From positions 6,976 through 70,975 of the forward strand of contig SDOX01000158.1 in the NCBI GenBank assembly GCA_004565275.1: DNA of 64,000 nucleotides, read 5' to 3'. The notes below the pieces were generated by a model that did no database searches, had not been told where the DNA came from, and worked only from the letters and a program-made list of their open reading frames with translations. Below, piece after piece: positions 18,501 through 61,343 of this stretch (its first letter is position 1; the number at the start of each line of letters is the position of its first letter). The DNA is from Nannochloropsis salina CCMP1776. Taxonomy: Eukaryota > Sar > Eustigmatophyceae > Eustigmatales > Monodopsidaceae. The position numbers were made by a program, and so were the translations under genes.

Positions 18501-21500
18501 GAAAGGAGATGGGCCCCATTCTTTTCTGCAACAAAAATGTTGGACGCCACAAGAGCAAAAAAGCGTGGCAAATTCCCGCTGAGTCGCGAGTGGGAAGGGT
18601 ACAAAAGTGCAGGTCCCGAGTCATGTTGCCCACTATTATCCTGAAGACGTGTTCGAACCTCCGACAGAAGGGCATGGAGAAGGGTGGACTGAAAGTGAGA
18701 TTGCAGCGCTTCCCCGAATTGCCCTGCCGACGGGGCAGGACCTTTGCCGTCGTCGTCCCTCTGATGGGGCGGGTGTGCTCCATGCAGCGAGGGCCAAGGG
18801 TAGAGATGCAAATCCCGAGGCCAGGCTTGAAGGCAAGATTGTATGGAGGAGACTGCCTTGGCTTGGTGTGCGAGACGATCGAAGAGCAAGGCGACCAAAA
18901 ACTTCAGGGTGAAACGGCGGAGGGAGCCAGGGTGCTTCAATACGTCCCTTTCGCTCGAACAAGGGGTTGCAGCATGCTTTCCGGGGGTTGTCGGGTTCGA
19001 TTCTTGCTCCTGTTCGTCTTCCTTCACCGCTCCTGCTACACGCCCGCTCCCACAACTCGCTTCATCGGCCTCCCTTGGGTCCTCTAGCATCTCCGCCAGC
19101 AGGACTGCATAATATACTTGTGCCATCTCCTCTACCAAGTCCTCTCCTTTTGGCAGAAGGAGACCGCCCAAACGCGCCGCCACACCCCCTGACACGCCAC
19201 CGACGAGCACATTGGAAGAAAAGTCTCCGCGGAAAAGCTCGCGCAATTCAACGGATTCCAGGTAGAGGTTGTAGAGGAAGGACAAAGCTTTGTAGGATAC
19301 GACACGGGCGGCATGACATCTTTCTTGGAGCACTTCGTGTAACGGAGAATGCGCATATTTATCTCTACATTTGTTACTGTCTTCATTGTTGCCGTTGGTG
19401 TTGCTGTTGTAGTTGCACTTGTTGTTGCACTTTTTGCTGGTTTCCTCACGGAGAAGGAGCATGACGTGGGATAATTTGCTGTCCGCCAGAGCGGTGGGGC
19501 GAGCCTCTATGGTTTGCAGAAGACCTTGCACTGTTGTCATCCCCGCCGCCGCTGATATGCTGGAAAGAATGGCGGGTAATGTCCCAGGTACTTGGATTGT
19601 TTGGTGCGGCAACAGCAGGCTCGGCTCGCCTCCCCTTACTGCGCTCCCGCTACTGGAAAGGGACCTTCGCGTGCCCACTGCCAGGTGGTCAAAGATTTGT
19701 TCAAGGGCCAAGAAGAGGGCGCTGCTGCCCAGGAGATGGGAAAATTGTGTTTTGTACAACGTCCTGAGGCACTGCAGATATACAGGAGGGGGCTCACAGG
19801 TACCTGTGTCCGAGGCAGGCAAATGGAAGAATGCCTTGACCTCAGCCACCTCTTTAGACACGAGCTGCGGCTGCCAAGCTTGACTCCAGTCATCATCGGC
19901 GAAGGAACCAGGACCATGGGATAAGTATCGACCACAGCTGGCTTGTTCCGTATTTTCGGTGGCGGTTGTGCCGAAAGAAGACTTGCTTGCGGGAAGCGGG
20001 ACGGGGTTTCCCAGCGCGTGGAGTTCGAGGGCCTTGAACACGCTAGGAAGGATCACTTGAAGGTGCCCGAGTCCGGCCGTGCGGTCCAAAATCGCCTGGG
20101 CCGAGGGCATGAGAGCCACTAACAGCTGATATGCCAACAGGGCTGAGAGTGGATCCTGGTGCCGGCGGGCCGCCCGCTTGAAACCCCCCACGGTGGAAAT
20201 TGAGGTCGAGATACGCCGACTGGTTGGAAGTCTCCCATTCACCCCTTTCTCTTCCCTGAGACCATTGCTTTCATACACCGGAAACACGCTACTATGGACG
20301 TCTCGCTCAAAGGGAGTGAAAGGTAGTCCGTCCTCTAAATCGATTTTTCCCTGGGCAATTCCCGCCCAGAAGACGACATCTCCGAACAGGTACGCAATGT
20401 AAACAAGCCATTTAGGCGGCATGGCCCTTACAATCAACCCTAGACATTCATCAGAAGCCACCGGGGTGAAAGAGCCTGTACTGGAATGCGCACAACCATT
20501 GACACCAGGGCGGAAATCGCCGCTCGATACCTTCCCATCCGTACGCGTCCCACCATTCCTGGCACCGTGCGACGAATGCAATGCGTAATGCTCCGTGACC
20601 CTGATCAAAAGCCGAAGCAATCCGCGTCGGACGCTCTTCAGTCGGTGAACACGACTGATGGTAGTTCTGTGCGGTGCGTGGGGCTTTTTGGGGTGCCGAT
20701 GGGCTGGATAGCTTGCTTTTCGGTCCTGCCCGTCCGAGACCTTGGCGTTTCCTCCAACGCTTCCACTGCCCCCCTTTTCAGAATGTGCTGCCTTGGCAGC
20801 ACTGGTTGTCAGAAGCCCATTCATGTAAAGTCTTTGAAAACGAATGGAGCATGTGGCCAAGATCACATGAGCAACCGCAGCCAAGTCGTCGATGGGTGGA
20901 CGCTTTCGCGTCAGGATGTCATAGATCAAATTGCACATGGACAGGAACAATTCCTGCGACATATCCGGTTGAATGAGCATGTAGAGTAACGACCTAGTAA
21001 TCCCAGCGAATTGGAACCTCCTGAGGTTCAGCTCTTCGACCGCGCATCGACCGTCATGCTCCTCGCTGCCCGAGGCGGCGATGGCATGACGTAAGGTGCC
21101 AAGGACCAGGCAGTGGACCTCAGGAGAGGCGTCTTTCCAGATGGGAAAATTGAATACCAGATGCTGCAAGGCCTGGAGATTAATGGCTGTCAACATCCAC
21201 TCCCTAGGCCGGTGATCCTGAGAAAAGGAAGTTTTACCGACCAGTAAGAGTAGTGGCTTCATGCTTTGCGGGACAATCAGACCTCGACGGGCTTTTCGAC
21301 GGAGCAGCTCGGAGAGGATGGCGTAAAAATGCCCTTGCTCCACCCTCTGTATGTTCAAGGGTTGTGCATGGAGGAGGGCAACCAAAAACTCGAGCGCCAA
21401 GCGGAGCTCTTCCACGCATTGGGCGCGTTCACAAAGCATGATGGCCGGGACGAGGGGGGATTGGCAGGCGTACTGGAGGGAGTCCGCGACGCGTCGTCGG

Positions 21501-24500
21501 TCCACTGCCAAGGCCCCCCCGGAAAGCTCGACGGCCAGATGTTCTCGGTTGCAGAGAGCGGAGTAAGCGAAAAGACGACTCAGGTTGCACGGATCCTCCG
21601 AAATCGTCCGAGGGGCCAGACTCAGGATGACATGATCGGCGGCAATCCCCAAAACATCCACCGGAGCGGCAGACAGGTTTGTAAACTGAGCACGACTGAG
21701 CACCGAGACTTTGGCCTCTCCCGTCCCTATTCCCTGCATGCCCCCGGTGCCGATACTTTTCCCTCCCCCATGACTACCATCCATGCCGCTGAAGCTCCCT
21801 CGAAGGCCCTTTCTCCCCTCTTTTGATCCTTCAGCCTCCTCCCTTTCCCCTCCCCGCGCGCCTCGGCTTCCTGCCGAGATATGGCCACCCAATTTGTGCG
21901 CTTTGATCAAGACTCGCAACTGAGCAGCCGAGCACAAGTCATAACAAAGAGGGAATGCTCCCCGCCCGTCGTCTCCCAAAAAGGTGAGCGCGGAGGACGG
22001 ACCTGTGGCATACAGCATCAAGACGGCCAAGTCGCTGATACATTCAGAGAGGAGGTAGACAGGTCCCAAGGTCCATTTCATACGGTTGCAGTCGCTAGGC
22101 GGCTGTTGCTGCGGCTGTTTCACTTGCTGCTGCTGGTGCGACGGTGGTGACCCTCGGGGTGGTTGTTGTTGTTGCCAAGTTAGAGGACAGGCGCCTCGTC
22201 CGTTGCCAGGCCCTTGACCCATGCAGCATTGCACACGGTGGAGTCCTTTTGTCGGCCGCGGGTAGGCCAGGGACAGGGCTTGAGCTAAGTCTCCGTTGAG
22301 ATAGACCGCCGCCTGTGCAGGTCGGCGCTTCTCGTGGACGACAGTCAGGTGGTACCACGTGCCCTCAAGGAAGGGGGGAAGACGATCGCACACGGCCTCT
22401 TGCACGCCTTCCCTCCCGGCAGGGGCGGAGGACACGGTCAGGCGGTTGTTGACGATTTCAATGCTGGTGAGTAGCTTTCCATCCTCTGCCAGGAGCAGGA
22501 GCGGCAGCCGAAGGGTCGCGGGCCGCCCAAGGCGAAACCAGACCGCGAATGTGTATCCTGTCGGTGGCGGCCAGGGATGCACCCTTCCTTCCCCTCCGCT
22601 TCCTTCCTCTTGACGAATGGCTTCGGCGAAGCCCTCGGGATGGAGGGAGGGTATTGCCAATCTCGGGCCCCCGCCGCTTCCGTCGGTCCCCGTTCCTCCC
22701 TGCGCGCATACAGGGGAGGGGTCAAAGACGACCAGGGCCGCCGATCCGAACGTATGCCCGGTGGGGTGCGAAAGGAATGTCCTGTCGGTGCAGCACGGGG
22801 AATACGGACTGTCCAAGCAAGGGGATGGATTTGTCGAGGGGGAGGCAGGGGCGCGGATGGACGCCTTCTTTCGCGCTTCGGGTAGAGGGGAAGGGACCGA
22901 CACCCCCCTGGTCACGTCAACCAAGACACGGAAGAGATTCAAGCGCCGCGTTTCCATCCGTTCATTCCTCTTCTTCCTCCCATCTCTTCCCTCGTCTCCT
23001 TCCGCGGCTCCAACCTCCTCGGGTATAACCCCATCGTAGTCAGTCAAGACCGCGTTGAACCACGTCCGTAAATCCTCCCCCGATGTCCGCTCTTTGGCCG
23101 CAAGACCCAAAAGACTGAGCAGACAACTTTCCACATTTTCCTGGAAAGCAGCAGGTCGCATGGCGGCCCACAACGCGGTTCTGACCAGGCCAGCCTCAAG
23201 GGCAAGCTCCAAGTTCTTCTCGGAGGCCAAAAGCCGGGCTACGAATCCCGCCAAGGCCTCGAGGAGGGGCCCCGCGAAGGCACAGCCCGGGAGATTGACG
23301 GGGTACTCGGCCACAAGCTCGAGGAGGAGGAGAATGGCGCGAGGGGAGTGGAGTGGGGGGTGGCTGGCGCTGAAGGGTACCATGTACTCGTTGCGATCAG
23401 ACAAAGTGGAAGGCCCGCCGGCGGTGGGAAAAAGATCACCGGGAGGGGCATCGGGACCATGAAATGAGGAAGACAATGGAGGAGAGGTTGACAGCAGAGG
23501 ACAAAAGGAGGGAGCCGGGATGGTAGAGAGCGAGTGGGCGGGACGTGGGGCCAAAATCGCTTCCAAGACAGGCGTGTATCCCCCCAGGGCCATGGAGAGG
23601 AGGAAGCGACCCAGGAAGGCCAGGATGGAATGGGGAACCCGAGAACTTTCCGAGTAGGAGCACGAGGAAGCCTCAGGGAGGATAAGGGCGGGGAAAGTGC
23701 CCCGTACAAGACGCGCACAAAGGCTGCCAAGCTCTTGAAAGAGGGCAAGAGAGTGGCGCATGGAAGTGACGGACGCTGCTCCTCCGACAAGCATATGCGT
23801 ATCGAAGCTTTTGCGGTCCCCCACCACAACCGTCACACCTTCCACCGAGTCCACAGGATGCAAACGACTCAGAGCAGTGACAAAAACTAGAAGACAGGAG
23901 CCAAAAAATTCCGCGAAAGCGGTGTTCTCGTCGTTGGCGAGTCCGACCTGACTGTTCCCCCCAGAGGCGTAAGAATCCTTGTCCTGACCGGGCCCCACAA
24001 AGGGACCGAAGGCAAGCCGTCGGTCTGGCCCAAGACAGAGACTCTGAAAGGGCCATTCTCCCGTCTCCATTCGCGCAATGCACTGCTCTACCATCCGCAA
24101 GATCCGATCCACTCCCCCCGCCCGTACCATGGCACAACGGATCTGCAGGACGCGGGAAAAGGCCTGGGCGAGGCTGGGGGAGACCGGAGGCGTGAGGGCC
24201 AACCATCTTAATGCTTGGCCCCGGTGGCACCGAATCGAGGCAAGCACAATCGGTGTCACGAAAGGAAAGCCGTCGTAACCCGTCTCAAGAAGCCCGTGTG
24301 CAGCTACTCCCCCCTGACTGCCGACGCAGGGAGGAGGAGTTCCGAGGCGTCGTTCCCATACCCCATCCAGGGTGTCGGGAGGGACCAACAGGGAGAGAAC
24401 GGCGTGCACCACCAATATGCATTGCTGCAACGCCTTTCCGGAGGCGTCGAGAGCGAGGGGGGGGTGGAGACCGACTGTCTCCGACCAGTTTCGCGCCTGG

Positions 24501-26371
24501 TAGGGGACTTCAGCCGTTGCCGTCAAGGCCCGCACGTAAGCCATGGCGATCATGCCTCCGTTTCCAAACGGGGCTTCCAGCATCCTCACAACCTCTTCGC
24601 TGGCGCCGTTTGTATTCGTTCCCGCCGAGGCAGGCGGTAATTCCGAGACGGCCTGACACGAGATGAAGCGTTCGTCGAAGTCGTCCAGCAATACCTTCAG
24701 CAGAGCCTCGAATTCCTTTCCGCTCCTGTCAGGACTTTCCTCCGCCACCTTTCCATTCATGTCTCCATGCAGGTCTCTTGAGGATGCAAGCGGGGTAGGA
24801 GGTAGGGAGCAAGGGGTTGGAGGAGGAGGCGAACCAGATCCCACGCTCCAATTGCGGCGTGGAGTTGACGTCATTGCCACGGCCATTTCACGCATTAGTA
24901 CGTTCCACAAACATACTCCCTCGGCGTAATGCGTATCTTGAGCTAACAAGGCTAATATCGTAGGGGCCGCTCCATTGTCCATGACCAGGCGCGCGGCTTT
25001 CCCACACCCGCGAACCACCCACAGCAGGGTGTCAAGCGCCAAGGAGACGGTAAATGAAGCAAATGCCTTCCCCGGTGCCCCGCCTGCTCTAGAGGATGGC
25101 TTCATGCCGCTAATATGACAAGCGTCTTGTGTCCTGGGAGGTATGACTGCAGCTGCTGGCCTGCTCGCAGGTCGAATGACAATCATCAGTGCCTCTATCA
25201 AGCCTGTGTCGCACCACACTTGCTTGTATCTGGGATCAGCCCGGACAGTTGCGACCACCAAATGCCGCAGAGAGCAGACGAGGTTAAAAACACGGAAGGA
25301 ATGTGCTTCTCTGCCTTTGTGAGCGAATTCATCAGCGCCTTCGCCTTGCTTCTCCTCCGCTTCCCTTTCCTCTCCTTCCTCTAGTGCAAGCCCATGGCCA
25401 GTCGACGCTCTTTCAAAGACCACCCCTGCGGCCTCCACAAGTGCGCATAACTCGACTAAGGGAGCAATTCGGTGGAAAGTGCAGAGGAAAGCCACCCAGG
25501 TGCAAATTTTGTATGTGATATCTGGGGGCAGGCGCCCTATGTCCTCTAGTACCGGGATGAGGGGATGGGCCAGCATGATCGGACGCATGTTCCCTGGGCT
25601 ACAAATCACCTGCATAAGAGCGTCAAGGAAGGTGGCACAGTATGCAATGCAGCCTGGATCGACGTCGTTGTTGACGTGGGCGGGAAAGGAGGCGATCTTG
25701 TGGAAGGCCATCACCAGGGCCGTGTAAACGTACTTGTTCTTTACCAGGGGTCCTTGCCTGCCATTTTCACACGTAATTCCCTGAGCAGGCGGCTGGGACT
25801 GTGCTTGCTGGTGGCTGGAAGGAGCGTGGAGAGGAGTTCGGAACCCTTCTGTCACTTGGGATAGGACGTGGGCACCGCAATGATCGATGCCATCTCCGTC
25901 CGAAGTCATGCCCTCGCCCACATAGAGCAAAGGCAAAAAGGCCTGGAGCAAGTCTTCTCCAAGGAGGTATCGTCCTTCTCCGACAACCACACCCATACGC
26001 GTCATGAACTCTTCCAGCATGCCGGACCCGCGAAACTCATCCCAATGTTTCCGGGTATGCGAGTTGCAAAGATACAGGAAGCGACTGACTGCCCGGACCA
26101 CGTTGGGTAAAGATGTGGCTCGCACGGCGAAGATCTTTCCCGTCATGGCTGTTACGACCCGACGCTTCAAAAAATGTTCAACTGTTTCTTTTGTGAATGC
26201 CTCTGGATAGCGTTTTAGAGTCTCAATCAAACTTTTGTCCTCCAAATCGAGGCCTAATCCTCTCGGCGGTGGAGCGAGGAGGAAAGTCATGTCAGTCACC
26301 GCAACCTCCACAGCCTTTGGAGATCCTTCGGGAAGCGCTGCGGAGACTGATCCCATTGATAAAGGTTCCAT
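12575..26371 (-). CDS. Giant BEACH-WD40 protein (WDFY3/LvsA/SPIRRIG type)
   Basis: Scaffold of membrane traffic, lysosome and autophagy functions in this family. A single uninterrupted frame of 4598 codons runs from the ATG at 26371; the frame stays open about 100 bases further upstream without an ATG, so a 5' exon is possible. Domains in order: Armadillo-like N-terminal helices; a concanavalin/LamG-like domain at about 1270-1430 (YTFAVWFRLGR, WYHLTVVHEK); more helical repeats; an acidic run near 3290-3330; a PH-BEACH domain at about 3480-3655 (HRYNCARIQGVYCYPG); and the BEACH domain at about 3700-3995 (NISNFQYLMHLNTLSGRSYN, YPVFPWIVADW). WD40 repeats follow from about 4200 (HRAVLLWDLNRRRLL, LATGHQDGRLRLW). 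No FYVE finger is seen. A 13.8-kb gene without introns is striking beside intron-bearing neighbours. Confidence 0.95.
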   Translation of the reverse strand: MEPLSMGSVSAALPEGSPKAVEVAVTDMTFLLAPPPRGLGLDLEDKSLIETLKRYPEAFTKETVEHFLKRRVVTAMTGKIFAVRATSLPNVVRAVSRFLYLCNSHTRKHWDEFRGSGMLEEFMTRMGVVVGEGRYLLGEDLLQAFLPLLYVGEGMTSDGDGIDHCGAHVLSQVTEGFRTPLHAPSSHQQAQSQPPAQGITCENGRQGPLVKNKYVYTALVMAFHKIASFPAHVNNDVDPGCIAYCATFLDALMQVICSPGNMRPIMLAHPLIPVLEDIGRLPPDITYKICTWVAFLCTFHRIAPLVELCALVEAAGVVFERASTGHGLALEEGEEREAEEKQGEGADEFAHKGREAHSFRVFNLVCSLRHLVVATVRADPRYKQVWCDTGLIEALMIVIRPASRPAAAVIPPRTQDACHISGMKPSSRAGGAPGKAFASFTVSLALDTLLWVVRGCGKAARLVMDNGAAPTILALLAQDTHYAEGVCLWNVLMREMAVAMTSTPRRNWSVGSGSPPPPTPCSLPPTPLASSRDLHGDMNGKVAEESPDRSGKEFEALLKVLLDDFDERFISCQAVSELPPASAGTNTNGASEEVVRMLEAPFGNGGMIAMAYVRALTATAEVPYQARNWSETVGLHPPLALDASGKALQQCILVVHAVLSLLVPPDTLDGVWERRLGTPPPCVGSQGGVAAHGLLETGYDGFPFVTPIVLASIRCHRGQALRWLALTPPVSPSLAQAFSRVLQIRCAMVRAGGVDRILRMVEQCIARMETGEWPFQSLCLGPDRRLAFGPFVGPGQDKDSYASGGNSQVGLANDENTAFAEFFGSCLLVFVTALSRLHPVDSVEGVTVVVGDRKSFDTHMLVGGAASVTSMRHSLALFQELGSLCARLVRGTFPALILPEASSCSYSESSRVPHSILAFLGRFLLSMALGGYTPVLEAILAPRPAHSLSTIPAPSFCPLLSTSPPLSSSFHGPDAPPGDLFPTAGGPSTLSDRNEYMVPFSASHPPLHSPRAILLLLELVAEYPVNLPGCAFAGPLLEALAGFVARLLASEKNLELALEAGLVRTALWAAMRPAAFQENVESCLLSLLGLAAKERTSGEDLRTWFNAVLTDYDGVIPEEVGAAEGDEGRDGRKKRNERMETRRLNLFRVLVDVTRGVSVPSPLPEARKKASIRAPASPSTNPSPCLDSPYSPCCTDRTFLSHPTGHTFGSAALVVFDPSPVCAQGGTGTDGSGGGPRLAIPSLHPEGFAEAIRQEEGSGGEGRVHPWPPPTGYTFAVWFRLGRPATLRLPLLLLAEDGKLLTSIEIVNNRLTVSSAPAGREGVQEAVCDRLPPFLEGTWYHLTVVHEKRRPAQAAVYLNGDLAQALSLAYPRPTKGLHRVQCCMGQGPGNGRGACPLTWQQQQPPRGSPPSHQQQQVKQPQQQPPSDCNRMKWTLGPVYLLSECISDLAVLMLYATGPSSALTFLGDDGRGAFPLCYDLCSAAQLRVLIKAHKLGGHISAGSRGARGGEREEAEGSKEGRKGLRGSFSGMDGSHGGGKSIGTGGMQGIGTGEAKVSVLSRAQFTNLSAAPVDVLGIAADHVILSLAPRTISEDPCNLSRLFAYSALCNREHLAVELSGGALAVDRRRVADSLQYACQSPLVPAIMLCERAQCVEELRLALEFLVALLHAQPLNIQRVEQGHFYAILSELLRRKARRGLIVPQSMKPLLLLVGKTSFSQDHRPREWMLTAINLQALQHLVFNFPIWKDASPEVHCLVLGTLRHAIAASGSEEHDGRCAVEELNLRRFQFAGITRSLLYMLIQPDMSQELFLSMCNLIYDILTRKRPPIDDLAAVAHVILATCSIRFQRLYMNGLLTTSAAKAAHSEKGGSGSVGGNAKVSDGQDRKASYPAHRHPKKPHAPHRTTISRVHRLKSVRRGLLRLLIRVTEHYALHSSHGARNGGTRTDGKVSSGDFRPGVNGCAHSSTGSFTPVASDECLGLIVRAMPPKWLVYIAYLFGDVVFWAGIAQGKIDLEDGLPFTPFERDVHSSVFPVYESNGLREEKGVNGRLPTSRRISTSISTVGGFKRAARRHQDPLSALLAYQLLVALMPSAQAILDRTAGLGHLQVILPSVFKALELHALGNPVPLPASKSSFGTTATENTEQASCGRYLSHGPGSFADDDWSQAWQPQLVSKEVAEVKAFFHLPASDTGTCEPPPVYLQCLRTLYKTQFSHLLGSSALFLALEQIFDHLAVGTRRSLSSSGSAVRGGEPSLLLPHQTIQVPGTLPAILSSISAAAGMTTVQGLLQTIEARPTALADSKLSHVMLLLREETSKKCNNKCNYNSNTNGNNEDSNKCRDKYAHSPLHEVLQERCHAARVVSYKALSFLYNLYLESVELRELFRGDFSSNVLVGGVSGGVAARLGGLLLPKGEDLVEEMAQVYYAVLLAEMLEDPREADEASCGSGRVAGAVKEDEQEQESNPTTPGKHAATPCSSERDVLKHPGSLRRFTLKFLVALLFDRLAHQAKAVSSIQSCLQAWPRDLHLYPWPSLHGAHPPHQRDDDGKGPAPSAGQFGEALQSHFQSTLLHALLSEVRTRLQDNSGQHDSGPALLYPSHSRLSGNLPRFFALVASNIFVAEKNGAHLLSSTFPRTPFRSCQPGQAKSLNRDYWLLTNLQFLVDMLQFAVIPSPVSATEPVLGVTFRSLKVVQQQQQQHYQHQHSQRQHTASPPAYKTTATVSLLGGQAKHAVGNLFGIAKWKGDDVEEWILCALEYLRKVLLCGLGWLDDGLQESTISAVFKHALRHFNFLLPQLHTPRAIEQDKQFLAALLYYLYPLLSDEKAHYREAAMYLWRELLASSRLRKVMEGLLSVPHLVTVQGKRGELLEKNASLNLLNYSVGGGPSFPFQAPSPCSEGFDILLKVDLSHFPSLRPFLDSTSSTASFPYPMGARPRSRSVKSTVVTAGNEFADKEFYSWLGSLSSDLQGKIHKSLLQHGRDFRQWAVSTAGVVVQAHQDGVATTEKHRRKATFARLKALTKASSAWRKELKPRQDLELRRQVRWSQERTDREAFGARHMQVLFTELIEGTSLATRAEGSFITDRAGSPSRGPWRQNEPTAEEVRMERRVQSLVLHVGDAALLGGMEKGVGDGDYCVESAEGPMRMRRKLLRAPYRLGPVARNLAASSSASPRPGVTPILEPKRPQMRRQRSRSLSALPKRSVTFDRGSPVGALTVQGGLKASPSMDSESDDIPLPRGSPVLRPCRNLPVSSPLSLTYEADQCEEPPGCVVGSSEEVLPSSTLLEKGAADMAFFLDDYVETDEDTEATEDEEDEEDEELEEEEKEDGEEAGEEDIKVVEQKEREERKEGADVTSSGLNSKRREVSDGQAAKHTRPPAFTVVGMTRSMEERLRPFGSHDDLMSRPATSPKQSLGSPGTETGTGEGDHLDRLPSIIHPFRRRTVASAAEMAGAEHGERETTEGVSPRMALDREIGGGHEMEGEDLEAAEDLVGADGKLKPFLVPGDEIKHRYNCARIQGVYCYPGLALLARNHLYIIDNYKLIETGVLAGQEKGKHSGQANLTSPYEVAEIEPEKATTIQTQHSLENEHGTTNSSSSVPILCTHRVEISPRLRAKCVPGGALGPPHRCHYFQFEDVTVVYRRRYHLRHVALEIFLANGENHLITLDAPEARNNLLQKLKARCKEATAAVESARVSPLDEIQTFLSLTTPSTWTERWVRGNISNFQYLMHLNTLSGRSYNDLTQYPVFPWIVADWDSPKLDLTNPNTFRDLSRPMGALNPAREMEFRERYALLKEAEQPGDPKKAFHYGTHYSSAAIVLYYLVRLQPFAEQHVRLQSGRFDHSDRLFSALKKSWCASSGAAEGRESGASTNTQDVRELIPEFFYLPEMFTNRNNYDYGKDSEGTRIDHVMLPPWAGGSAQEFVRLHRQALESEHVSRHLHHWIDLIWGYKQRGKAAEEACNVYYYLTYEGAMDLETVEDPTLRAAYVEQIHEFGQTPSQLFKTPHPAKIHVASGGNTHEREGFPGNSTGNSGAGGGLVGGSTPQWLRNLKPTRSGGRPGPSPLPPSINAQLGFDDGPRGIGATACPTGQPERILSGTGGMTDAEPSKTFAVREAETSHSILKPYPWTISFLPFSHWTKAEVPCLHTSEAALNRCPPRCLTVGISAPVVHWIQHNSPLEPSHPAFDPVGHFVVGQILPPPPFSSPSPLSAPSALHKACAYIPQTEHFLAWGYADNCLRVGSLAPNAALQASNPINSGLSSFAKGNAGVGVSSLAEPHLSLALDSAGPITALAVGEDGRTMVTGSRLLPVVTVWGMAKGLVSAAGGGTAPPRMITRMGALLSALHAGGITNVALSTKYSVVVSVCALHRAVLLWDLNRRRLLRRLSVIFTETWEGQIGKEPVTLCIADVTGTILLTMGTSIQVYNVNGDPLARLDLRAEPVRGGFARQRSPFPSLSTPVSPCVGTAQATISTQNLLRAPAALITASCVVGDGSMPVTLATGHQDGRLRLWVVALEREVEGGRSPPMAFDMGQWQGGGANRLHLVGEFENDLHRPHARVGRVPVTALTLTRDARCLYAGDAVGRVCVWTASSTSTLAAMEGGTPSSRSQGMR

Positions 26372-27483
26372 TTTGATCAGTTGGCCCGCTTGACGCTCCC
26401 TGTAAGCGGGGTCGAACGTGCTATCCTCTTTGGGATACAAGAAAATTGTTTTCGTATTCTTATTCTGGCATAAACCACAAGAAAGTCTCGAACAGTGTTC
26501 TCCTGCTTTTAGATGCGTATATTATAAGTAATTTTATAAATAATTACACTTAACGCAGATATGTGAGTGTACGGGCAATGATTACAAAGCAGTTAATTTG
26601 GTCTCGGCCCAATCGAACAAACTTCCGGCTCATCCTAGGCAAAAAGAATTCTCGCTTGTGAGATAATAAACAATCTTACAATTAATGTCCACAAAAAGGC
26701 GGATAAAAAGCGCAAGATTACAAATTGTGAGCTTCAAGGAACGTTGTTTGGTACGTCTGGCACCACGAGAATGGCAAGCGATGACCTGAGCGACACCTAA
26801 AGCAAGCAATCCAACGGCTCAGAAACGGCTCACGTAAACGGTTTGCTCGGAGGAGGTTGGAGAGTTGTTGTGGATAGTGACTTCCCTGGGGGACAAACAA
26901 AACAAATCAAAAATACGAGACAAAATAAACAAGCAAATGATATGCGATCTTGTGCCGTAACACGGAGTGCAGAGGATGAGGAACTAGTGGGTAAAGTGTC
27001 AATAGCAATACCAATATCGATCATCTCGTAAGTGTCGATTATGTCTGCTCGCAAGCATGCACTATATGACAATACGCTTAATATCGCATTAAAGCATGCC
27101 GGAAGGACTAAATTCAAAAATTGAAGGAAACCATACCATCTTTTATCTTTATCAGAACAAGTAGGTCTCTCTCGCATCAAATCACGTTGAAATTTTATGA
27201 GGTGTTCGAATGAAGAGCGGGACGCTGAAAGCCAATAAAAAAGCGATGAAACAGCAATTCACTGCTTCTTGCGACGTGTCCACTATAAATAATATACAAA
27301 TTTGAGTAGCAATAAATGGTGGTAAAGATCAAGTGACAGGCGACTATTCCGTGCAAGGCACGATATTGCAATCATACGTACCATCGCTGTCTTTGCTTTC
27401 TTTGCTTTGTAGTTTATGCCTGCTTTTCAATTTATCTCCTCTCTCTCAGGCTGCTTCTTCCATTGGGGTTTTCCCCGCCCCAC
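26372..27483. other. AT-rich region upstream of the BEACH gene
   Basis: About 1.1 kb, clearly AT-richer than the coding sequence. It should hold the BEACH promoter and 5' UTR, perhaps a first exon, and the SLX9-like 3' UTR. A 116-codon minus-strand frame at 26830-27180 has hydrophobic stretches but no recognisable family, so it is not called. Confidence 0.5.
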
Positions 27484-28949: not shown

Positions 28950-31160
28950 TCATTCTCCGCAAGAATTATTGCCCTTATACCTTCTTCCCTCCTCCACCAT
29001 CTTCTTTACTAAATCCTTCCCATACAAAAAAGCTGCAATTTCCGCCCAGTCCTCGGCCGCGTAGACGACCCGGCTGGCTTTGCCCCGTTCCTCTTTCTTG
29101 ACAGGAAACGCTACAAGCCCCCGAATCTTCCATCCAAATCTTCGCAGCATCCGTCTCAAAGTCCGAGATTCACCCACCACAATCCCTACATCTGCTGCCA
29201 TCAACGCCAACACATCCGTAACCGAATCTCCGATAAACACCGACGGGGACGACCGTCCACGCCCTTTCTGCCCTCCTCCCTCGGGTCCAGCCTCCGCGAC
29301 TTGCAGCAAACGTTGGAAATGGCCGAGTTTCCCCCCCGGACCTCCTACCTTCACCTCGATTGCCCCGGTGGTAAGAAGGCGGCCGTCTGATCCTACCTCC
29401 TCCACGAGGTGGTTGCAGGTGACCCTGGCGGGGCTGAGCCCGGTGGCGGCAGTGATGAGGAATGACGACCACGAGACGGAGAGGACGTGAAAGAGGGAGG
29501 AGGAAGAAGGCGACGAGGAGCGGTCGGCGGCGTAGCGAAGGGTGGTGGCGCAGTAAGGACGGAGGGCGAGGGCAGCAGCAAAGGAGGAAGGAAGGGAGGA
29601 GGGGGGATGCGAAAAAGAAGGCATTGGGGAGGACGAGGTGAGGAGGGCGGGAAGGAGGGAGAGGTCAATCCCCTTGAGAATCCGGGAGTCACTGACCGCC
29701 GCCACTGCCTCGCTATCGAAGGCATCCAGGGGGGCCAAGTAGGCAGCGGCCCCACCCAGGTCCTTCGCCTCGGGGTGGGAGGGAGGGAGGGAGGGAGGGA
29801 GAGAGGGAGGGAGACCCGTCAGGAGGGGGTCAAGGACGCCGGAGAGCTGAGAGAGGTAGCCCTCTTCCAACCGCCTCCACTGCTCTGCCGTGGAAGCAGG
29901 GCTCTGGAAGTGCCCCGCTGCCCGCGCCAGAAGGTGCGTGGTGTCTGCCAGGGTGCAGGTGCCGTCGAAGTCCGTGATGAGGACGGAAGGATCGAGACCG
30001 CGCCACTCCTGCGACTCCTGCCATTGCTCCGCAAAAAAGGCGTATTCCAGCTCCATGGCTTCTCCGTACAGGGCGAATAAACGCCGTTCCTCCTCCTCCT
30101 CCTCCTCCTCCTCCTCCTCACCCTCCTCCTCCTCTTCCTCCTTCTCGTCCTCCTTCCCTCCCTTCCCTTGCCCTTCATGGTGCTTCTTTCTTCGATTTTT
30201 CCTCCTCTTCACCTTCTCCTTTTCCACCTCGGAATCCAATAGCGATTCTGTTGCCACAGCACTCGCCTCAAATTCGGTGCTTGCGTACGTTTCCAGCCAT
30301 TTTTGCAGGTAGGGAGGGAAGGAGGGCGGGGAGGAGGGAGGGAAGGAAGTCGCCGCGGTGCCCTCAGCCTGCGATCGTTCCTTCTCGTCCACGCCGAGGA
30401 AGCCTCTCTCCTCCATCAATCGACGGGCAACATGGGCGTACAGGCGCATGCACGGCGTCATGGCCGCCAATATCTGGGCGACGCCCACGCTCGGGTCGCT
30501 GGCATGCTGGAGGAGGAAGGTGGTGTAGGCACGGCAGGCGGGGGAGGGGACGAAGGAGGCTGGGAGGAGAGCGGACGTGGGGGGAGAGGATTGCCGATCT
30601 TCTTGCTGCTTGGCTCCTCTATGGTCCTGCGTTTCGACGCTCACCCTTCCGCTTTCTGAGCTCGTCGCCTCCCCCGCTTCTGGCTTTAAAGCACCCAAAA
30701 CGGTGGTATGCAACCGAAGCTCTTCCACGACATCGGCAATCATTCCACTCAATGCGATGACCGTCTCTGGATCTTCAGCTTTAGTCAGCGCGAAAGCATA
30801 GGCCTTGGCAAAGGATTGCAAAAAGTGCGCGTCTTGGGCTGCGTAGGCGTGAAATGTCTCGGCGGGTAATGTGCCTTGCCCGATGGAGCGGACGAAAGGA
30901 TGGTGAAGCACGGCTTGGGTCAGCGGATGGTAGGCGCGCCAGAGACGATGGGAAAGAGGAGAATGGGATGCCGAACTTGCCGGCATAGTGGACAGGGGGC
31001 GAGCTAGGGCCAGGGGAACGTGTTGGGGAGAGGCAGGAGGAAGGGAGGAGATGGTGGAGGACGAGAAAGGCACAGCCGACGCAAGGAGCAGATAGATGCG
31101 ACGGCGAAGTCCACGCTTTAAGATGGATTTTATATTTTGATAAAAGACATTTTTCAGCAT
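28950..31160 (-). CDS. TenA-HAD fusion, TH2-type thiamin monophosphate phosphatase
   Basis: In plants TH2 dephosphorylates thiamin monophosphate to thiamin and its TenA half is thought to salvage thiamin fragments. The ATG at 31160 gives 736 residues in one exon. Residues 1-57 are basic and hydroxylated, like an organelle leader. A TenA domain starts at about residue 58, with the active-site QD in AAQDAHFL near 108 and the late conserved Glu in MELEYAFFAEQW near 373. It is interrupted by a Lys/Glu-rich linker of about 60 residues ending in a near-continuous Glu run. The HAD phosphatase follows: DFDGT motif I near 397, motif IV FIGDSVTDVLALMAA near 643. A (CCCT)n tract inside the HAD part encodes [12 protein letters not shown]. 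The domain order equals plant TH2. Substrate is inferred from that order. Confidence 0.88.
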   Translation of the reverse strand: MLKNVFYQNIKSILKRGLRRRIYLLLASAVPFSSSTISSLPPASPQHVPLALARPLSTMPASSASHSPLSHRLWRAYHPLTQAVLHHPFVRSIGQGTLPAETFHAYAAQDAHFLQSFAKAYAFALTKAEDPETVIALSGMIADVVEELRLHTTVLGALKPEAGEATSSESGRVSVETQDHRGAKQQEDRQSSPPTSALLPASFVPSPACRAYTTFLLQHASDPSVGVAQILAAMTPCMRLYAHVARRLMEERGFLGVDEKERSQAEGTAATSFPPSSPPSFPPYLQKWLETYASTEFEASAVATESLLDSEVEKEKVKRRKNRRKKHHEGQGKGGKEDEKEEEEEEGEEEEEEEEEEERRLFALYGEAMELEYAFFAEQWQESQEWRGLDPSVLITDFDGTCTLADTTHLLARAAGHFQSPASTAEQWRRLEEGYLSQLSGVLDPLLTGLPPSLPPSLPPSHPEAKDLGGAAAYLAPLDAFDSEAVAAVSDSRILKGIDLSLLPALLTSSSPMPSFSHPPSSLPSSFAAALALRPYCATTLRYAADRSSSPSSSSLFHVLSVSWSSFLITAATGLSPARVTCNHLVEEVGSDGRLLTTGAIEVKVGGPGGKLGHFQRLLQVAEAGPEGGGQKGRGRSSPSVFIGDSVTDVLALMAADVGIVVGESRTLRRMLRRFGWKIRGLVAFPVKKEERGKASRVVYAAEDWAEIAAFLYGKDLVKKMVEEGRRYKGNNSCGE
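29775..29813. repeat. (GGGA)n tract inside the TH2-like coding sequence
   Basis: About nine GGGA units with one GAGA break. Read on the gene's minus strand they give Leu-Pro-Pro-Ser repeats in the cap region of the HAD domain. Confidence 0.85.
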
Positions 31161-31815
31161 GCACCCTGGCGACGGGAAGGCCAAAAGCGGACAGAGGGTC
31201 GTGATAAAAAGGGGAGGAGGTTAACATAGATGGTGTGATATTTCACAAAAGCAGGTGGCTCCCGTAAGATTGAGTACACTTGCACTGAACACCTCGTCCA
31301 GCATCTAGCAATGACTGGAGAGCACACCGGGAGAAACTTTCAGCCATCACGACGCAAGGTTGAGGCCGGTGGGCGTGTCGTTGAGTGCATGTCTGGTCAT
31401 CTCTCTCGCCTAGCACCTCGCTTTATGTTACCTATCTGGTCATCACTCGCGCTGAGCCCTTTCATCAATTATCGCTCCAAGTGTACTGCTATTCCCTTCT
31501 GTGTGGTTAGTCCTTGTTGATTCTAGGATATGCAGGAGGGGTACGCGCTGTCTTGTCGCCGTCTGCGTGCCGGACCCCCTCAGATATTCCCTGCGGGCAC
31601 CACCTTGGTGCGCATGGCCGGAGGAGAGATGCGCGAAGAATCATGTACTTTATCTTGAATATCGAAAAAAGGGGAAGATTGCGATATTTGCACGCCTGCC
31701 TTCGTTGCTGCTGCCGCTTGCTGCTTCAAGCTAATCTGAAGTGCTAAGTCTATCGTCTCCATTACGACCAACGCACCAAAAACAGACACTTCTTCCACTT
31801 CACAGCTTAAATATC
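31161..31815. other. Divergent intergenic region (TH2-like / psbM)
   Basis: About 655 bases between divergent start codons. It should hold both promoters; I see no clear core element or additional gene. Confidence 0.5.
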
Positions 31816-32945
31816 ATGTCTCGTACGTCCATGCTCTTCGTCACCGCCATCGCCGCCCTTTTGGCTTTGGTAAGTGCAAGTTGTTCATCCCCTTAGGTGT
31901 CTGGGGGACCCTACGAAGGCCGAGGAAGGGACTATGCCCTCCCTTCTCTGTTCGTGCTTGATAAATGCAAAAGTGGTTGAGAGTACGGCCGTACCTTACA
32001 TACAAACTCATCAGAATTCAGCTCAGGAGGGATTTGGCGCACAGAGGGGTTACATTGTGCCTCTTCCCCACCCCCGGGCCTACCGCCCTTCTTCCACCTT
32101 GCCCACTCACTCCCCTTCCTTCATTCCCTCAGAGCGCCCAAGCCTTCGTCCCCACCAGTAAGCTCGTCCAGCCCGCTGCTGTTGCCGCCGGCCGCAAGGC
32201 TGCCACCAGCATGAAGCTCGATGTGCCCGCAGTGGTCGCAGGCCTTGCCCCCGCCGCCCTTGCCGCCCCTGCCTTCGCCGCTGGTAAGGGTTTTTGCTTG
32301 GGCATAAGGGTTGGAAAATAGGATGATTATTGTCAGAATAGTTTCAGGAAGGGAAATGGACATGATTGATCCCCCTTGTAGTCCCAGGGATGCATCCGGT
32401 GGAGGAGAAGGAATGCACTCTTGAGAAGGACAGGCACGCGTAAGAGGGCACGAGGGCGGGACTCGTTCTGCCTCCTACCCGTGGCCCTCGAGCCTATCCA
32501 CCCATTACCCGTGGCCCTTGAGCATACCTTTCCTATTTCTTATCCACTCTTCGCCGTGTCCACTTCATCTCCCCGTGTCCCCTCCCTCCTCACAGACCAG
32601 ATCATGACTGCGCTCCCCTCCACCACTGTCTCCCTGGAGGTACGATTCCCTTCACTGGCTTAAGGGTATTCCTGTTTTCGGGTGCACGTGACCCTGTGTA
32701 GTGGCACCCATCCTTCTCCTCCGCCTGCATAAAGTTGCCAGCGATCGTCATTCCCCCGCGCACAACCTCCAAGGAACTGACTCGTTTCGTCCTCCCTCCC
32801 CTCCCTCCTCCACCCCTCGCAGGTGACCTTCGCGGCGTATCTGGCTGTTCTCCTCGGCACTTTCGTCCCCGTCGCATTCCTCATCATCCTTTACATCCAA
32901 TCCGAGTCTCGCAAGGCTGGGGAGGCTGCGGGGCGCGGGGAGTAG
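31816..32945 (+). CDS. psbM: Nuclear-encoded photosystem II subunit PsbM with plastid/thylakoid leader
   Basis: PsbM is a one-helix subunit at the photosystem II dimer interface. Exons are 31816-31869, 32133-32283, 32596-32639 and 32823-32945; GT-AG introns and phases close to 123 residues. Residues 1-20 are a signal peptide, followed by AQAFVP, an ASAFAP-like plastid motif. Residues 21-57 are a basic transit stretch. Residues 61-70 are a second hydrophobic segment ending in AFAA, like a thylakoid-lumen signal. The mature end LEVTFAAYLAVLLGTFVP continues with VAFLIILYIQS. It lines up with plastid and cyanobacterial PsbM, (M)EVxxxAxxAxxLxxxVPxAFLxIxYxxx, without gaps. The C-terminal tail is slightly longer than usual. 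A single transmembrane helix limits certainty, but the EV, VP-x-AFL and Y positions all agree. Confidence 0.82.
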
Positions 32946-33738: not shown

Positions 33739-36700
33739 ATGTCGGACGACCTGGAAGAGAGAGGCTGGATGCTTTCTTTCCGCCGCGTTCGTCAGCCCCC
33801 CCTTCCTCCTCCACGTCTCCCTCCTCCCCCTCTTCCTCCCCCTGTTCCATATCTACCCTGGCCTCTTCCTTCTTGCCGACGACTTTCCGGTATACAGATG
33901 GTTGCAAGTTCATCAAGCCCCTCTGATGACATAAAAGGGGGAGAAAAAACAGGCAAAGAGAGGGAGATGGGAAGGAGAGAAACGGCAACAGCTGACGCGA
34001 GAAATAATACAGAAGAAGGAGGAGAAAGGGGAGGGAGAGGAAGCACAGTCCAGAAAGCAGGGTATGGGCTGAGGAAGAGGAGAAATCCTCGCGGAAAGGG
34101 GGCAGGGCGTGGCTTGGTGGAAAGACAAGAAAATGCTGCCACGAAAGGCCGAGTTGGAAAAGGAGCGAAGCAACGCAATCAGAGCCAGAAACCACGTGCA
34201 ACCGCCCGAGAACGACGAAAAATGGATGGAAATGGTTTGAGCTCACTGGCAAATTTTTCAGGAGAGGGGACTGGTCAGGCACCTTCATCAGCTCCTGCCT
34301 CTGACCTTTCACTTGTAGCACCCCGTCAGCAGGACGAGGTGGGTACGCCCCAGACTTCTTCGCTCGCACGGAGGGACGACGGTGCCACAGCTCCTATTTT
34401 GAAACACCGAAAGCCTTTTCGCCAAGGCGAGAAAAAGGATGGCGATAGGCAGGGGGCCGGGAAGTTGGAGGGTGCGGGGGCCATGGCCGAGGGAGGGAAG
34501 CAAGGCGGGGGAAGGAGGCGAGTGCGCAAGAAAGAGAAAGCTCACAAGGCAGGCATGAGTACCTCAAACCTCACATATGTAGAGGAAGGGAAGGTGGGAG
34601 GGAGGGATGGGGAGGGGGAGGACGGCTTTCCCGTCCTGATCGAAGGGTGGGAGCAGCCTGGTGCCCATAGTCTGCCTCCCAGGTCGTACGCGAGCCTGCT
34701 CCGACACCAGCAAGAGCGATCGGCAAAGGATGAAATGGAGGTATCCGTCCAGGAATCGACGCAAGGGACGGATGAGGACCGAGGGGAGGCGGCTCGTCGA
34801 TTTGAATGCTTGAAAATCCGTTACCGGCTTGTGAAGCTTGACCCAGTCTTGGCCCTGCCTCCCTCCCGCCCCCCCCCTCTCACCCATGATGCCTCTTTAC
34901 CGGCATGCTCCTCGCAAGATTCGTCGTCTCCTGCTTCTGCTCCCTCTCCCATCGCTGCCCCCCTGCGATCCAGTTTGTCACGCAGCCGAGGAAGAGGAAG
35001 GGGAAGAAGGAGGGAGGGAGGGAGGGAGGAGGGGAAGCAGGCTGGGCAGGAAAGGAGTTTCCTCGATGTCACTCGGTGGGCTGCACGTCGGGAAGGGCTG
35101 GAGAGACGCTTGATGGAGTTGGAAGATGTGCGGGGCAGGGGCAAGGGAGGGAGAAGAGCAGGCCCGGGGGAAGGGGGCCGGTGGCCTGTCGTCTCGGGTG
35201 TGTCTTCGGGGCGCAAGGGAGAGGAAGAGGAAGAGCAGGAGGAAGGGATGGAGGGCGAGGCGGAGGAAGGGGAGAAAAACGGGTGGTACTCCTTCCTGCG
35301 CCCGTCCAAGGAGGTGCGCGGTGGCTTGTTGGTGGAGGGCGGGAGGGAGGGCGGGAGGGAGGGCGGGAGGGAGGGCGGGAAGGAGGGCAGGAGGCCGGAG
35401 AAGGGGGGGCAATGGAGGAGGGAAACGCCGGAGGAGAAGTTTGCTGCTGTGGCTGCCGTAATCAAGGACCGAAGGGTCAGTCACAAGACCCTTCAGACAC
35501 TCTTGATGGAGCAGGGAGGGAGGGAGGCAGGGAGGGCGGGCGGGGTGGGAGGCTGGGACTTGCGAGAGGTGGGAGGGCTGAGGATGAATCCGATCCACTT
35601 GGCGGCGAGGGAGGGGAGGGCGGACATGTTGGAGGTGCTCGTGCGGGCGGCTGGGGAGTCGATGGCCTTGGCAGTGGACGGATCGGATCGGAGGCGGATG
35701 ACGCCGTTGATGCACGCGGCGGAGGGAGGGAGGGAGGGAGGGAGGGAGGGAGGGAGGGGCCGGGACTGGGAGGAATGCGTGGAGGTGTTGTTGAATGGGG
35801 GGCGGACCCAGGTTTGCGGGACAAAGGCGGGGAAACGGCTTTGCACAAAGCGGCACGAGGGGGCCGCGTGCGCATCATGGAGTTGCTGGCGGCGCCCGTG
35901 AGGAGGGCGAGCGGAGGGCGGGAGGGAGGGAAGGGCCTGAGGAAGGGGGGGGAGAGGCGACAGCGTGCGCTGGGGATCAGGAACAAGCGGCAGGAGACGG
36001 CTTTGCACGTGGCGGCGGAGGGCGGGAAGGAGGAAGGGGTGCTCCTCCTCCTGCGACAGGGCGCGGTCGGCGACGTTTGGGACGTGGACGGTCATACTCC
36101 GCTTTCCCTCGCTGCTGCCAGGGGGCACGTGGGTGTGGTCCGAGTGCTTCTGCAGCGGGGGGAAGGAAGGAGAGAGGGAGGGAGGGAGGGAGGGAGGGAG
36201 GCAGGGATGCCTTGGAGGTAGCGGCACGGCATGGGAAAGAGGCGGTGGTTGCGCTACTGCTTGAGGCAGGGTGGGGTGTGGAGGGGAGGGAGGGAGGGAG
36301 GGAGGGAGGAAGGAAGGGGTTCACCCCCCGTGTTGGCAGCCGTGAGGGGAGGGCACCTAGGCGTAGTGAAGCTTTTGGTGGAGCAAGGGGCGATGGAGGG
36401 AGGGAAGAAATGGGAGAGGGCGATGCTCAATGCGGCTGTGGCAGGGAAGAAGGACATGGTGCGGTGGCTGCTGAGGGAGGGGGGGAGGAGGGCGGGAAGG
36501 AGGGGACGAGGAGGAAAGAGAAGAGGAGCGAGGAGCCGATGCAGGGGACCAGAACGGGGTTGCCGCCCTCCACAACCNNNNNNNNNNNNNNNNNNNNNNN
36601 NNNNNNNNNNNNNNNNNNNNNNNNNNNNNNNNNNNNNNNNNNNNNNNNNNNNNNNNNNNNNNNNNNNNNNNNNNNNNCTACCTTCTTCCCACGACGTCGT

Positions 36701-38555
36701 CTTGGTTGTGCGGGAGGGAGGGTGGGAGGGAGGATGGGAAGGAGGGAGGGAGGGAGGGAGGGAGAAGCGCTACCTGGCCCATCGGGCCGTGTTGGCGGGT
36801 CGGAGCGACAGATTCAAGGCTATGTTCGCATGGCAGGAGGGCGGCAGGGGAGGAGGCGGAGGAGGAGGCGAGGGTCCAGGGGCGGTGCGAGAGTTCCGGT
36901 TGGAAGGGGAATGGAGCCCGGGGGTGTTCGCGCAATTTTTAGAATTCCTGTACACAGGACGGAGCCCTCCCTCCCTCGGGCTGGGCGGGGAAGGGAGGCG
37001 CAGGGAGATGGGGGAAGGAGGCGGGGAGGGAGGGCGAGGAGCAGCATTGACGATGGAGCTGATGCTGCTGGCGGACGAGTGTCTAGTGGATGGGCTCCGA
37101 TGCCTGTGCGAGCACCGGGTGGGGGAACTTCTGGTGCGGTGGGGAAAAGAAGCGGGGGAGGCCGCTAGGGAGGGGGAGAGGGAGGGGTGGATGGCGAGCC
37201 TGGAGGAGGCCCTTCGAATGGTGGGGCTCTTGGGGTTACCAGTTTTGAGGGAGTATTGTCGCACGGCGGTGTTTGAGCAGGAGGGACGGAGGGAGGAGGG
37301 TGGGAAGACGGAGGGGGGGTGTCCGGCGAGGCGGCTGTGGGAGGCAGTGCTGGGAGTGGAGCTCGAGGGAGGGGGCAATGGGGCGAGGAATAGGGCCGAG
37401 CGAGGGCAAGTGCTGGGAGGCGCCACTGTCCTCACTGAGGCAGACGCGTCCTGGTGGGTGCGGGAGGTAGGAGCAGAGGGCGAGCGGGAGGGTGGGAAGG
37501 AGGGAAACAGGGAGAAAGACAAGGCGTTGCTCCCTGAGGCGTTGGTCAAGAGGCTGCTGGGAGAGGGATGGGGCCCTAGAGGGCCGATAATCTGGAGGGA
37601 GGTGGACGAGATCCTGGGCGGGTGGGGGGAAGGCGGGAGGGAGGAAGGGAGGGAGGAAGGAAGGGAGGAAGGAGGGGCGCTCCCCGGGGGAGAGCGGTCC
37701 TCCTCGTCTTTCAAGCTTAGCAATCTCGACAGGTATAGAGTGCAGAAAGCGTGGCGGGTCTGGTGGAGGAAAGAGCAGGAACGTCATACGGACCACGTCA
37801 GGAGGCCGTCCTACCCCCTTCCTCCCCCCCTTCCTCCCCCCGTCCTGCCTCCCCCCCTGGAGAGCCTCAGAATAGACATGGGAGGCATCTTGGCGGATGG
37901 GGGTATCTTTCCTGACTGTTACATTGCCTGCGAAGACAATGGGGGAAGGGAAGGAGGGAAAGGGGGAGGGCGGGAAGGAGGGAGCGTCGCATGTGCCGCG
38001 CATCGAAGCATTTTGGCAGCGAGGTCAGAACGGATGGCGGCTCACTTTCGTTTCGCGGAGATGGGAGAGGGCGAGAAGGAGGGAATGCCCACGTTCGTAT
38101 TCCCGTCGCTCTCTGCAAGCACGCTCGGACCCTTCTTGACATATCTATACACGGGGCGCCTGCCGGAGTTGGAGGAGGGGAGGGAGGTGGGAGGGGGGAA
38201 GACGGGGAGGTGCAGGACAGAGACGCTGATGGAGCTCGCTGTCGTGGCGGATGAATTTTTGCTTCCTGGCCTCGTTCGTGAGTGCGAGTGGGAGCTCTGT
38301 TTAAGTCAGGACTACATTCAGGGGGAGGGTACAGAAGAGACAGGGGCCGACGCAGAGGTGGAAGCGGCGGCGCGTCTCTTCAAACTCACAAACTTGTTGC
38401 CAGGAATGAGCGTGTTGAGAGTTCAATCGGCTTTGAGACTTGTCAAGGGGTGTAAGTATGTGTTGAAGGGAGGGGGGGAAGGAGGATGTCAAGATGGGGA
38501 AGACGAGGGCGAGGTATTGCTCAAAGAGGCCATTGACTGTTTGATGGACAAATAA
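33739..38555 (+). CDS. Ankyrin / double BTB-POZ protein (ABTB1-like), frame interrupted in this assembly
   Basis: Proteins with ankyrin repeats and two BTB domains, such as ABTB1/BPOZ, act as cullin-3 adaptors. The ATG at 33739 opens about 610 residues of Lys/Arg/Gly/Glu-rich, probably disordered sequence. Then come at least nine ankyrin units between 35583 and 36577 (MNPIHLAAREGRADMLEVLV, GETALHKAARGG, DALEVAARHGKEAVVALLL and others). After the gap follow BTB 1 (YLAHRAVLAGRSDRFKAMF, FLEFLYTGR) and BTB 2 (FPDCYIACEDN, AAHRSILAARSERMAAHF, FLTYLYTGRLP). The ankyrin units lie in different frames. The frame changes near 35797 (a run of six G), at 36165-36215, at 36280-36315 and at 36470-36510, each time in G-rich or (GGGA)n sequence. 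This may be a repeat-length error or a real defect. Confidence 0.8.
35336..35388. repeat. 12-bp GGGCGGGAGGGA tandem array
   Basis: Four or more copies in coding sequence, translating as Gly-Gly-Arg-Glu repeats in the disordered part of the ankyrin-BTB protein. Confidence 0.85.
35722..35758. repeat. (GGGA)n tract between ankyrin units
   Basis: About nine units inserted within an ankyrin repeat (after HAAE), read as Gly-Arg-Glu-Gly. A nearby homopolymer of six G at about 35797 marks a frame change. Confidence 0.9.
36174..36201. repeat. (GGGA)n tract at a frame change
   Basis: About seven units. The ankyrin unit before it (HTPLSLAAARGH) and the one after it (DALEVAARHGKE) lie in different frames. 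Confidence 0.9.
36284..36310. repeat. (GGGA)n tract at a frame change
   Basis: About six units plus imperfect GGAA units. The flanking ankyrin units VVALLLEAGW and PPVLAAVRGGHLG lie in different frames. Confidence 0.9.
36578..36677. other. Assembly gap (100 N)
   Basis: Exactly 100 N, the conventional length for a gap of unknown size. It falls between an ankyrin unit (GVAALHN) and the first BTB domain, so the frame across it cannot be known. Confidence 0.99.
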
Positions 38556-60365: not shown

Positions 60366-61343
60366 GGTGTACTGTGTTGAAGTATATTTTTCGCACAAGG
60401 TCAGAGCAAGAGAGGGGTTGAGGGGAGGCTGGAGGCTCCTAGCTTGATCCCAAGTAGAGCCCAGCCAACGATGAGGGCCAGAAGGGTAAAGTATGGCAAC
60501 ATGGAGTCAAGACACTGCCCCAAAAATCGACATGACACGCTGACCCCACCCACACTATGGTAATACAATCGGGATGACTCGTTTTACTTTGGCCTTGTTT
60601 GTTGGCTAGACTGTCGCCGGGCCACGCCATAGGAATCAAGCGAACGGACGCGAGCGATTGAGCCAGCCCAAGATACATTCAGGCAGGAAGCCCAACCCAA
60701 CCTACGCGATCATTCCAGCCTGTGCAGGGTGGCCCACACCCTACGCAGCATGTGAGTATGCTGTGGCTCAAGCAGGGCATGAAGGGGAGGGTCAAAGGAC
60801 ATTGTGTGTGGCTAGGTACGTGCGCAGGAAGGAGGTGCTTGCGGCAACTGCTTCCTGCCTCCCGGACTCCCCCGCAAAGGGGACTCACCATTGTCGTGTA
60901 CGTGTTGGCCAGGTGCTGGTGGGAGTTAGCCGGCAAGTCTGTGCATTGCATGCACGGGAGCACGTGTGACTCGTCGCCGTGGGATTTTCGTGTGTCCATT
61001 GAGGTTGTGAGATCGTGCTGTGCCGGGGCAAATCTGTGCTCTGCAATTCAGCCCTCAAGTTCAGCCCTCTCAGGACGTGTCTGCTCTCTTTCTGATCGCA
61101 CGCATTATGATAAAACAGGCACTCCTGCATCATAGAAAAGGACGCAGCGTGAACGGCGGGAAAGCAGCAGTGCAGGTGGGCCTTCGTTGTCCTGGAAAAA
61201 AGGGTAGCCCGAGCATTTGATCGGAGGGAGCGCATGCTCTAAGCTTTTGGCTTCTCAGGGTCGCTTTCCGTCGAAGTGCACGGTGCTCTGCCTCTTGGTA
61301 GTAGCGTCCATTCTTCCACACAAGTTGCAAGCGCCGTCGTGCA
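60366..61343. other. Divergent intergenic region (BCAT / riboflavin genes)
   Basis: About 980 bases between two divergent start codons, holding both promoters. No TATA box or additional gene is convincing. Confidence 0.5.

Follow-up and report, generated by a model that had tools for sequence, protein, structure and literature searches.

A probable nuclear gene for the photosystem II subunit PsbM in Nannochloropsis salina, with a leader resembling that of diatoms

Introduction

In plants, PsbM is encoded in the plastid. Does a locus at positions 31816–32945 of a Nannochloropsis salina CCMP1776 contig (also named Microchloropsis salina) hold a nuclear gene for this photosystem II subunit, as an earlier note proposed from the DNA letters, and what would such a gene mean for the losses of psbM that have been reported among algae? 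Within the membrane, the two halves of the photosystem II dimer are described as touching mainly through PsbM; dimers can still form when it is missing, but they are less stable (PMC7184784). We analyzed the locus within the 64,000-nucleotide stretch of DNA that contains it (the window) and against the 26.5-Mb assembly; published sources are cited by PMC number. The locus is very probably a nuclear gene for PsbM, with the leader, targeting, thylakoid insertion, and role in the dimer that are proposed below.

Results and discussion

A four-exon gene model

The gene lies on the forward strand of the window and consists of four exons whose joined frame is open over 123 codons plus a stop; the exons and the 123-residue frame were found as the earlier note had described them, and all three introns have GT-AG boundaries. 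Exon 1 (31816..31869, +) encodes the predicted signal peptide MSRTSMLFVTAIAALLAL and is followed by intron 1 (31870..32132, +; 263 bases, phase 0, gtaagt...cctcag). Exon 2 (32133..32283, +), which can be aligned with the precursor of diatom PsbM (8iwh_M), encodes a plastid motif, a transit stretch, and a hydrophobic thylakoid-type signal ending in APAFAA. The motif had been described as "ASAFAP-like"; the sequence actually reads SAQAFVP. Homology to 8iwh supports the junction across intron 2 (32284..32595, +; 312 bases, phase 1, gtaagg...ctcacag). The final base of exon 2 completes the first codon of exon 3 (32596..32639, +), whose product, DQIMTALPSTTVSLE, is a linker ahead of the helix and aligns with diatom DSIVEALPTQTLSLE. 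Splicing of intron 3 (32640..32822, +; 183 bases, phase 0, gtacga...ctcgcag) yields SLEV, as in diatom PsbM, whereas reading straight into exon 4 without splicing would give QV. Exon 4 (32823..32945, +, stop included) encodes the PsbM membrane helix and a C-terminal tail, as identified by PF05151, TIGR03038, and AlphaFold. GC content is 0.766 at third positions of the exons and 0.55 in the introns as a whole.

Splice choices downstream of exon 2 were scored against the Thalassiosira PsbM precursor 8iwh. Among 90 open GT-AG models with one or two introns, all with the exon 2 start held fixed, the combination of introns 2 and 3 originally proposed ranked first (225; runner-up 213). For the 5′ end, ATGs from 31300 onward were enumerated with the exon 2 acceptor held fixed, giving 20 candidate first exons (19 spliced, 1 unspliced). 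Only the starts at 31816 and 31831, the latter a second in-frame ATG within exon 1, pair a donor matching at 6/6 positions (GTAAGT) with the highest hydropathy, and both exons end at 31869. Exon 1, for which homology offers no clear evidence, is predicted from this ranking of donors and hydropathy, and translation may begin at either 31816 or 31831. A different 5′ end, in which translation begins at 31831 or, with intron 1 left in the transcript, at 31965, is rather unlikely and would be a variant of the same gene, not an alternative to it. Both frames are open and the start at 31831 retains the hydrophobic core, but the unspliced start would give a leader without a strong one (12-residue maximum of 1.02 vs 2.77).

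The last exon encodes a PsbM helix

Exon 4 encodes VTFAAYLAVLLGTFVPVAFLIILYIQSESRKAGEAAGRGE. In a search of the organism's own assembly, this exon scored 29 bits against PF05151 (cut-off 24). The spliced protein scored 27.8 bits against the same model (cut-off 24, E 2.3e-6) and 51.2 bits against TIGR03038, the NCBIfam PsbM equivalog (cut-off 35.05, E 7.4e-14), the latter match covering residues 82–114, that is, exon 4 and the final residue of exon 3. The best solved chain for the precursor is a diatom PsbM (E 4.1e-23), and 28 of the 30 solved sequences matched at E <= 10 are named PsbM or protein M; the remaining two are a chain M entry labelled as a photosystem II subunit and an unrelated receptor (E 3.7). 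The precursor contains a single membrane helix of approximately 30 residues, seen both as a hydropathy peak (2.63, residues 91–105) and in an AlphaFold model of exon 4 alone (one helix, 3–37, mean pLDDT 91.5).

Single-helix proteins are short and hydrophobic and their profile scores are therefore generally low, which leaves room for a photosystem protein with one helix that belongs to a different family and merely resembles PsbM. We consider this highly improbable. A profile search, named at the outset as a possible refutation, placed the helix in no other one-helix family: in Pfam and NCBIfam up to E = 1 the spliced protein matched no family other than PsbM, with both PsbM models above their cut-offs, and the solved matches are nearly all PsbM or protein M. 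Judged by two curated models and the closest solved chains, the helix is that of PsbM, and the original assignment stands.

Relatives in the red lineage

Over the helix region, exon 4 is 63–79% identical to five red-lineage PsbM sequences (two from diatoms, one from a red alga, and two cryptophyte entries); the alignment, in which the GTG first codon of exon 4 is read as M, has 20 invariant columns. The diatom proteins come from another ochrophyte class and share the helix (73% identity for 8iwh_M, 63% for 6j3y_M), the type of leader, and the order of parts. These chains are from Thalassiosira pseudonana (8iwh_M, 113 residues) and Chaetoceros gracilis (6j3y_M) (PMC12680713). When exons 2 and 3 plus five residues of exon 4 were used as the query, the only matches below E = 1 were 8iwh (5.2e-6) and 6j3y (0.0049). 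The leader thus resembles that of diatom PsbM, with PAAIATPAFAMDSIVEALP in 8iwh corresponding to PAALAAPAFAADQIMTALP here.

Five more precursor-length chains (101–130 residues) come from other algae: 7y5e, 8wb4, 9l5v (Rhodomonas), 4yuu, and 9kqb, the last from C. roscoffensis (PMC12680713). The helices of red algal 7y5e_ML and cryptophyte 8wb4_m are 78% and 69% identical to that of exon 4. Their chains have 101 and 115 residues, and their upstream parts (AEGGGMSVSF and AEGGMNVSV, respectively) lack an APAFA-type signal ahead of the helix. We take the red alga of 7y5e to be Porphyridium. The PsbM of 8wb4 was modelled with a Guillardia theta sequence (PMC11133340). With 7y5e and 8wb4 as the comparison outside the ochrophytes, a leader carrying the APAFA signal seems to be characteristic of ochrophytes, common to the eustigmatophyte and the diatoms. 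Plant (3jcu_M) and cyanobacterial (11yo_M) PsbM belong to the same family and share P-x-x-F-L in mid-helix and Y-x-x-x-x-S at the helix end, but they have no leader and are only 37.5% and 43.75% identical over 32 residues. Searching viral and bacterial/archaeal contigs with the red-lineage alignment gave 27 and 39 pattern matches, none of which was confirmed, as expected from what those collections contain.

A proposed targeting route

By inspection and hydropathy, the precursor begins with a putative signal peptide that runs into a phenylalanine motif (MLFVTAIAALLALSAQ-AF). SAQAFVP is followed by a basic stretch (GRKAATSMK) and then by VPAVVAGLAPAALAAPAFAA, a hydrophobic stretch with an A-x-A end that stands before the mature part and is common to the diatom precursors. 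A conserved phenylalanine at the junction is a known feature of heterokont plastid import (PMC8730698). We propose that the signal peptide would take the precursor into the ER membrane system, and that the phenylalanine of SAQAFVP, together with the basic stretch behind it, would serve passage across the inner plastid membranes. The second hydrophobic segment, with its APAFAA end, would then direct insertion into the thylakoid, placing the N-terminus on the lumenal side. A cut behind AFA would free the PsbM helix, whose basic C-terminal tail, SESRKAG, would lie in the stroma, and the mature protein would sit at the center of the photosystem II dimer.

Basic residues flanking a membrane helix follow the well-established positive-inside rule. 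Under this rule SESRKAG is expected on the stromal face of the membrane and the N-terminus on the lumenal face, an orientation that fits a cleavable, lumen-directed signal. Expression of the gene, the route and cleavage site of the precursor, the orientation of the helix, and its position in the dimer are all predictions. Exon shuffling was considered, as a guess, for the origin of the leader. The position of intron 3 at the border between leader and helix would fit such an event. When the assembly was searched with the whole precursor, however, the leader turned up nowhere else, and the idea was set aside.

Nuclear location and copy number

The contig bearing the PsbM gene has a GC content of 0.45–0.66 per 2-kb step and is separate from the contig bearing psbA; the published plastid GC content is 32.92% (PMC3999925). 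We regard the gene as nuclear, in agreement with the initial reading, on account of its three GT-AG introns and its position on a contig of this composition, distinct from the psbA-bearing one. Searching the 26.5-Mb assembly with PF05151 gave exon 4 as the sole match found (one of two scored candidates), and the whole-precursor search gave four matches, which correspond to the four exons of this gene. A second copy was not found in either search; as only the best candidates are scored, the copy number is a lower bound.

Is psbM absent from the plastid? The chloroplast genome of N. salina CCMP1776 has 114,821 bases, and the gene list published for it does not include psbM (PMC3999925). The accessions given there for the two organelle genomes of N. 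salina are KJ410685 and KJ410689. The table of Nannochloropsis chloroplast genes in the same source gives psb30, psbA, B, C, D, E, F, H, I, J, K, L, N, T, V, 28, X, Y, and Z, with psbM missing; absence of plastid psbM is reported there and in PMC3750441. On the psbA-bearing contig of the assembly, 56,000 of 114,821 bases are masked as N. In the 58,821 unmasked bases, seven PsbM queries produced nothing meaningful (best E 0.29 with phmmer, 0.24 with tblastn). This negative means little, since psbI and psbX, published plastid genes that served as controls, were likewise not found by a family search of the organism's own genome. The argument that the plastid lacks psbM accordingly depends on the published reports.

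An unexpressed nuclear pseudogene, or a piece of plastid DNA inserted into the nucleus, is very improbable at this locus. Helix and leader are conserved relative to diatoms over three exons, the frame is open with GT-AG introns, and the searches above turned up one copy. Introns and leader also point to long residence in the nucleus, in contrast to a recent insertion from the plastid. A functional nuclear gene would have precedents. PsbM is listed among the nuclear-encoded photosystem II components of Phaeodactylum tricornutum as Phatr3_J55057 (PMC5156380), a likeness to the present gene that is known from its description and not from its sequence, and four psbM gene models are described from a dinoflagellate in which most plastid genes now reside in the nucleus (PMC4079212). 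Given these reports from a diatom and a dinoflagellate, transfer as such is not new, and we infer that the move of psbM to the nucleus is old and not particular to N. salina. Within the part of the literature naming both Nannochloropsis and PsbM that was examined, no report of a PsbM gene from this genus was found.

Reported losses of psbM

In a 2017 survey, psbM was scored as lost in Chromera, Aureococcus, Nannochloropsis, and Chondrus, and this loss was placed beside the monomeric photosystem II of N. oceanica, for which other work is cited (PMC5643376). The survey sampled N. gaditana and searched by blastp and tblastn; for the chromerids alone it added a PSI-BLAST screen at 1e-10 (PMC5643376). 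The chloroplast genomes of N. gaditana and N. salina are 98.4% identical (PMC3999925), and the PsbM gene is therefore expected in both. With the gene found in N. salina, closely related as a sister to the species surveyed, a loss of PsbM for the whole genus is doubtful. The initial suggestion that missing algal PsbM may partly be an artefact of annotation was well aimed, at least as regards the loss scored for Nannochloropsis in that survey.

To see how readily exon 4 is detected, we ran tblastn on the window with PsbM queries of different origin, scaling E-values to 26.5 Mb. Diatom, red algal, and cryptophyte queries found the exon at E 3e-11 to 1e-13, whereas plant and cyanobacterial queries reached only 0.13 and 0.059, respectively, and a query of the green algal type (9k7v) did not find it in the window up to E 1000. 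In this test the lineage of the query decided detection, which gives a practical rule for anyone searching for PsbM: red-lineage queries succeed, and plant, cyanobacterial, and green-type queries are weak or fail. With plant and cyanobacterial queries weak and red-lineage queries strong, the reported losses may be failures of detection. How easily this subunit is missed is illustrated by a structure paper in which PsbM was missing from the authors' own transcriptome and the Guillardia sequence was substituted (PMC11133340).

That all four losses scored in 2017 are detection failures, caused by a tiny, split gene and a diverged helix, is a tentative idea, and we think it less likely than not. 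Against reading the losses as failures of detection, the text of the survey leaves other stramenopiles outside them, and red-lineage queries may thus have been available; the survey may also have looked at annotated proteins only. If the idea were true, PsbM would be a regular part of photosystem II in red-type plastids, and lack of it could not explain why photosystem II is monomeric. The value of the present gene is a modest but real correction to the literature on psbM loss in Nannochloropsis, and the other three reported losses (Aureococcus, Chondrus, and Chromera) become worth re-testing.

Other genes in the window

Scans of the window for Rfam families and tRNAs returned no matches to either. 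The gene divergent from PsbM (28950–31184, −) is an ORF with a TENA/THI-4 domain (Pfam 2.3e-20) that continues into a stretch resembling HAD phosphatases by eye (DFDGTCT), where Pfam gave no match. An uninterrupted ORF of 4621 residues at 12575–26440 (−) appears by eye to be of the BEACH/WD40 type. Overlapping repeat-rich ORFs at 34905–38555 (+) include some with ankyrin-like stretches, and two of them contain a short run of masked residues (X). A class IV aminotransferase at 59115–60398 (−) has a leader plan similar to that of PsbM, with a hydrophobic stretch followed by SSAFLTP, and is perhaps plastid-targeted. Finally, a 796-residue ORF at 61344–63734 (+) joins GTP cyclohydrolase II (271–437) to DHBP synthase (598–789), both far above their Pfam cut-offs; this domain order is opposite to that of the plant RibBA fusions.
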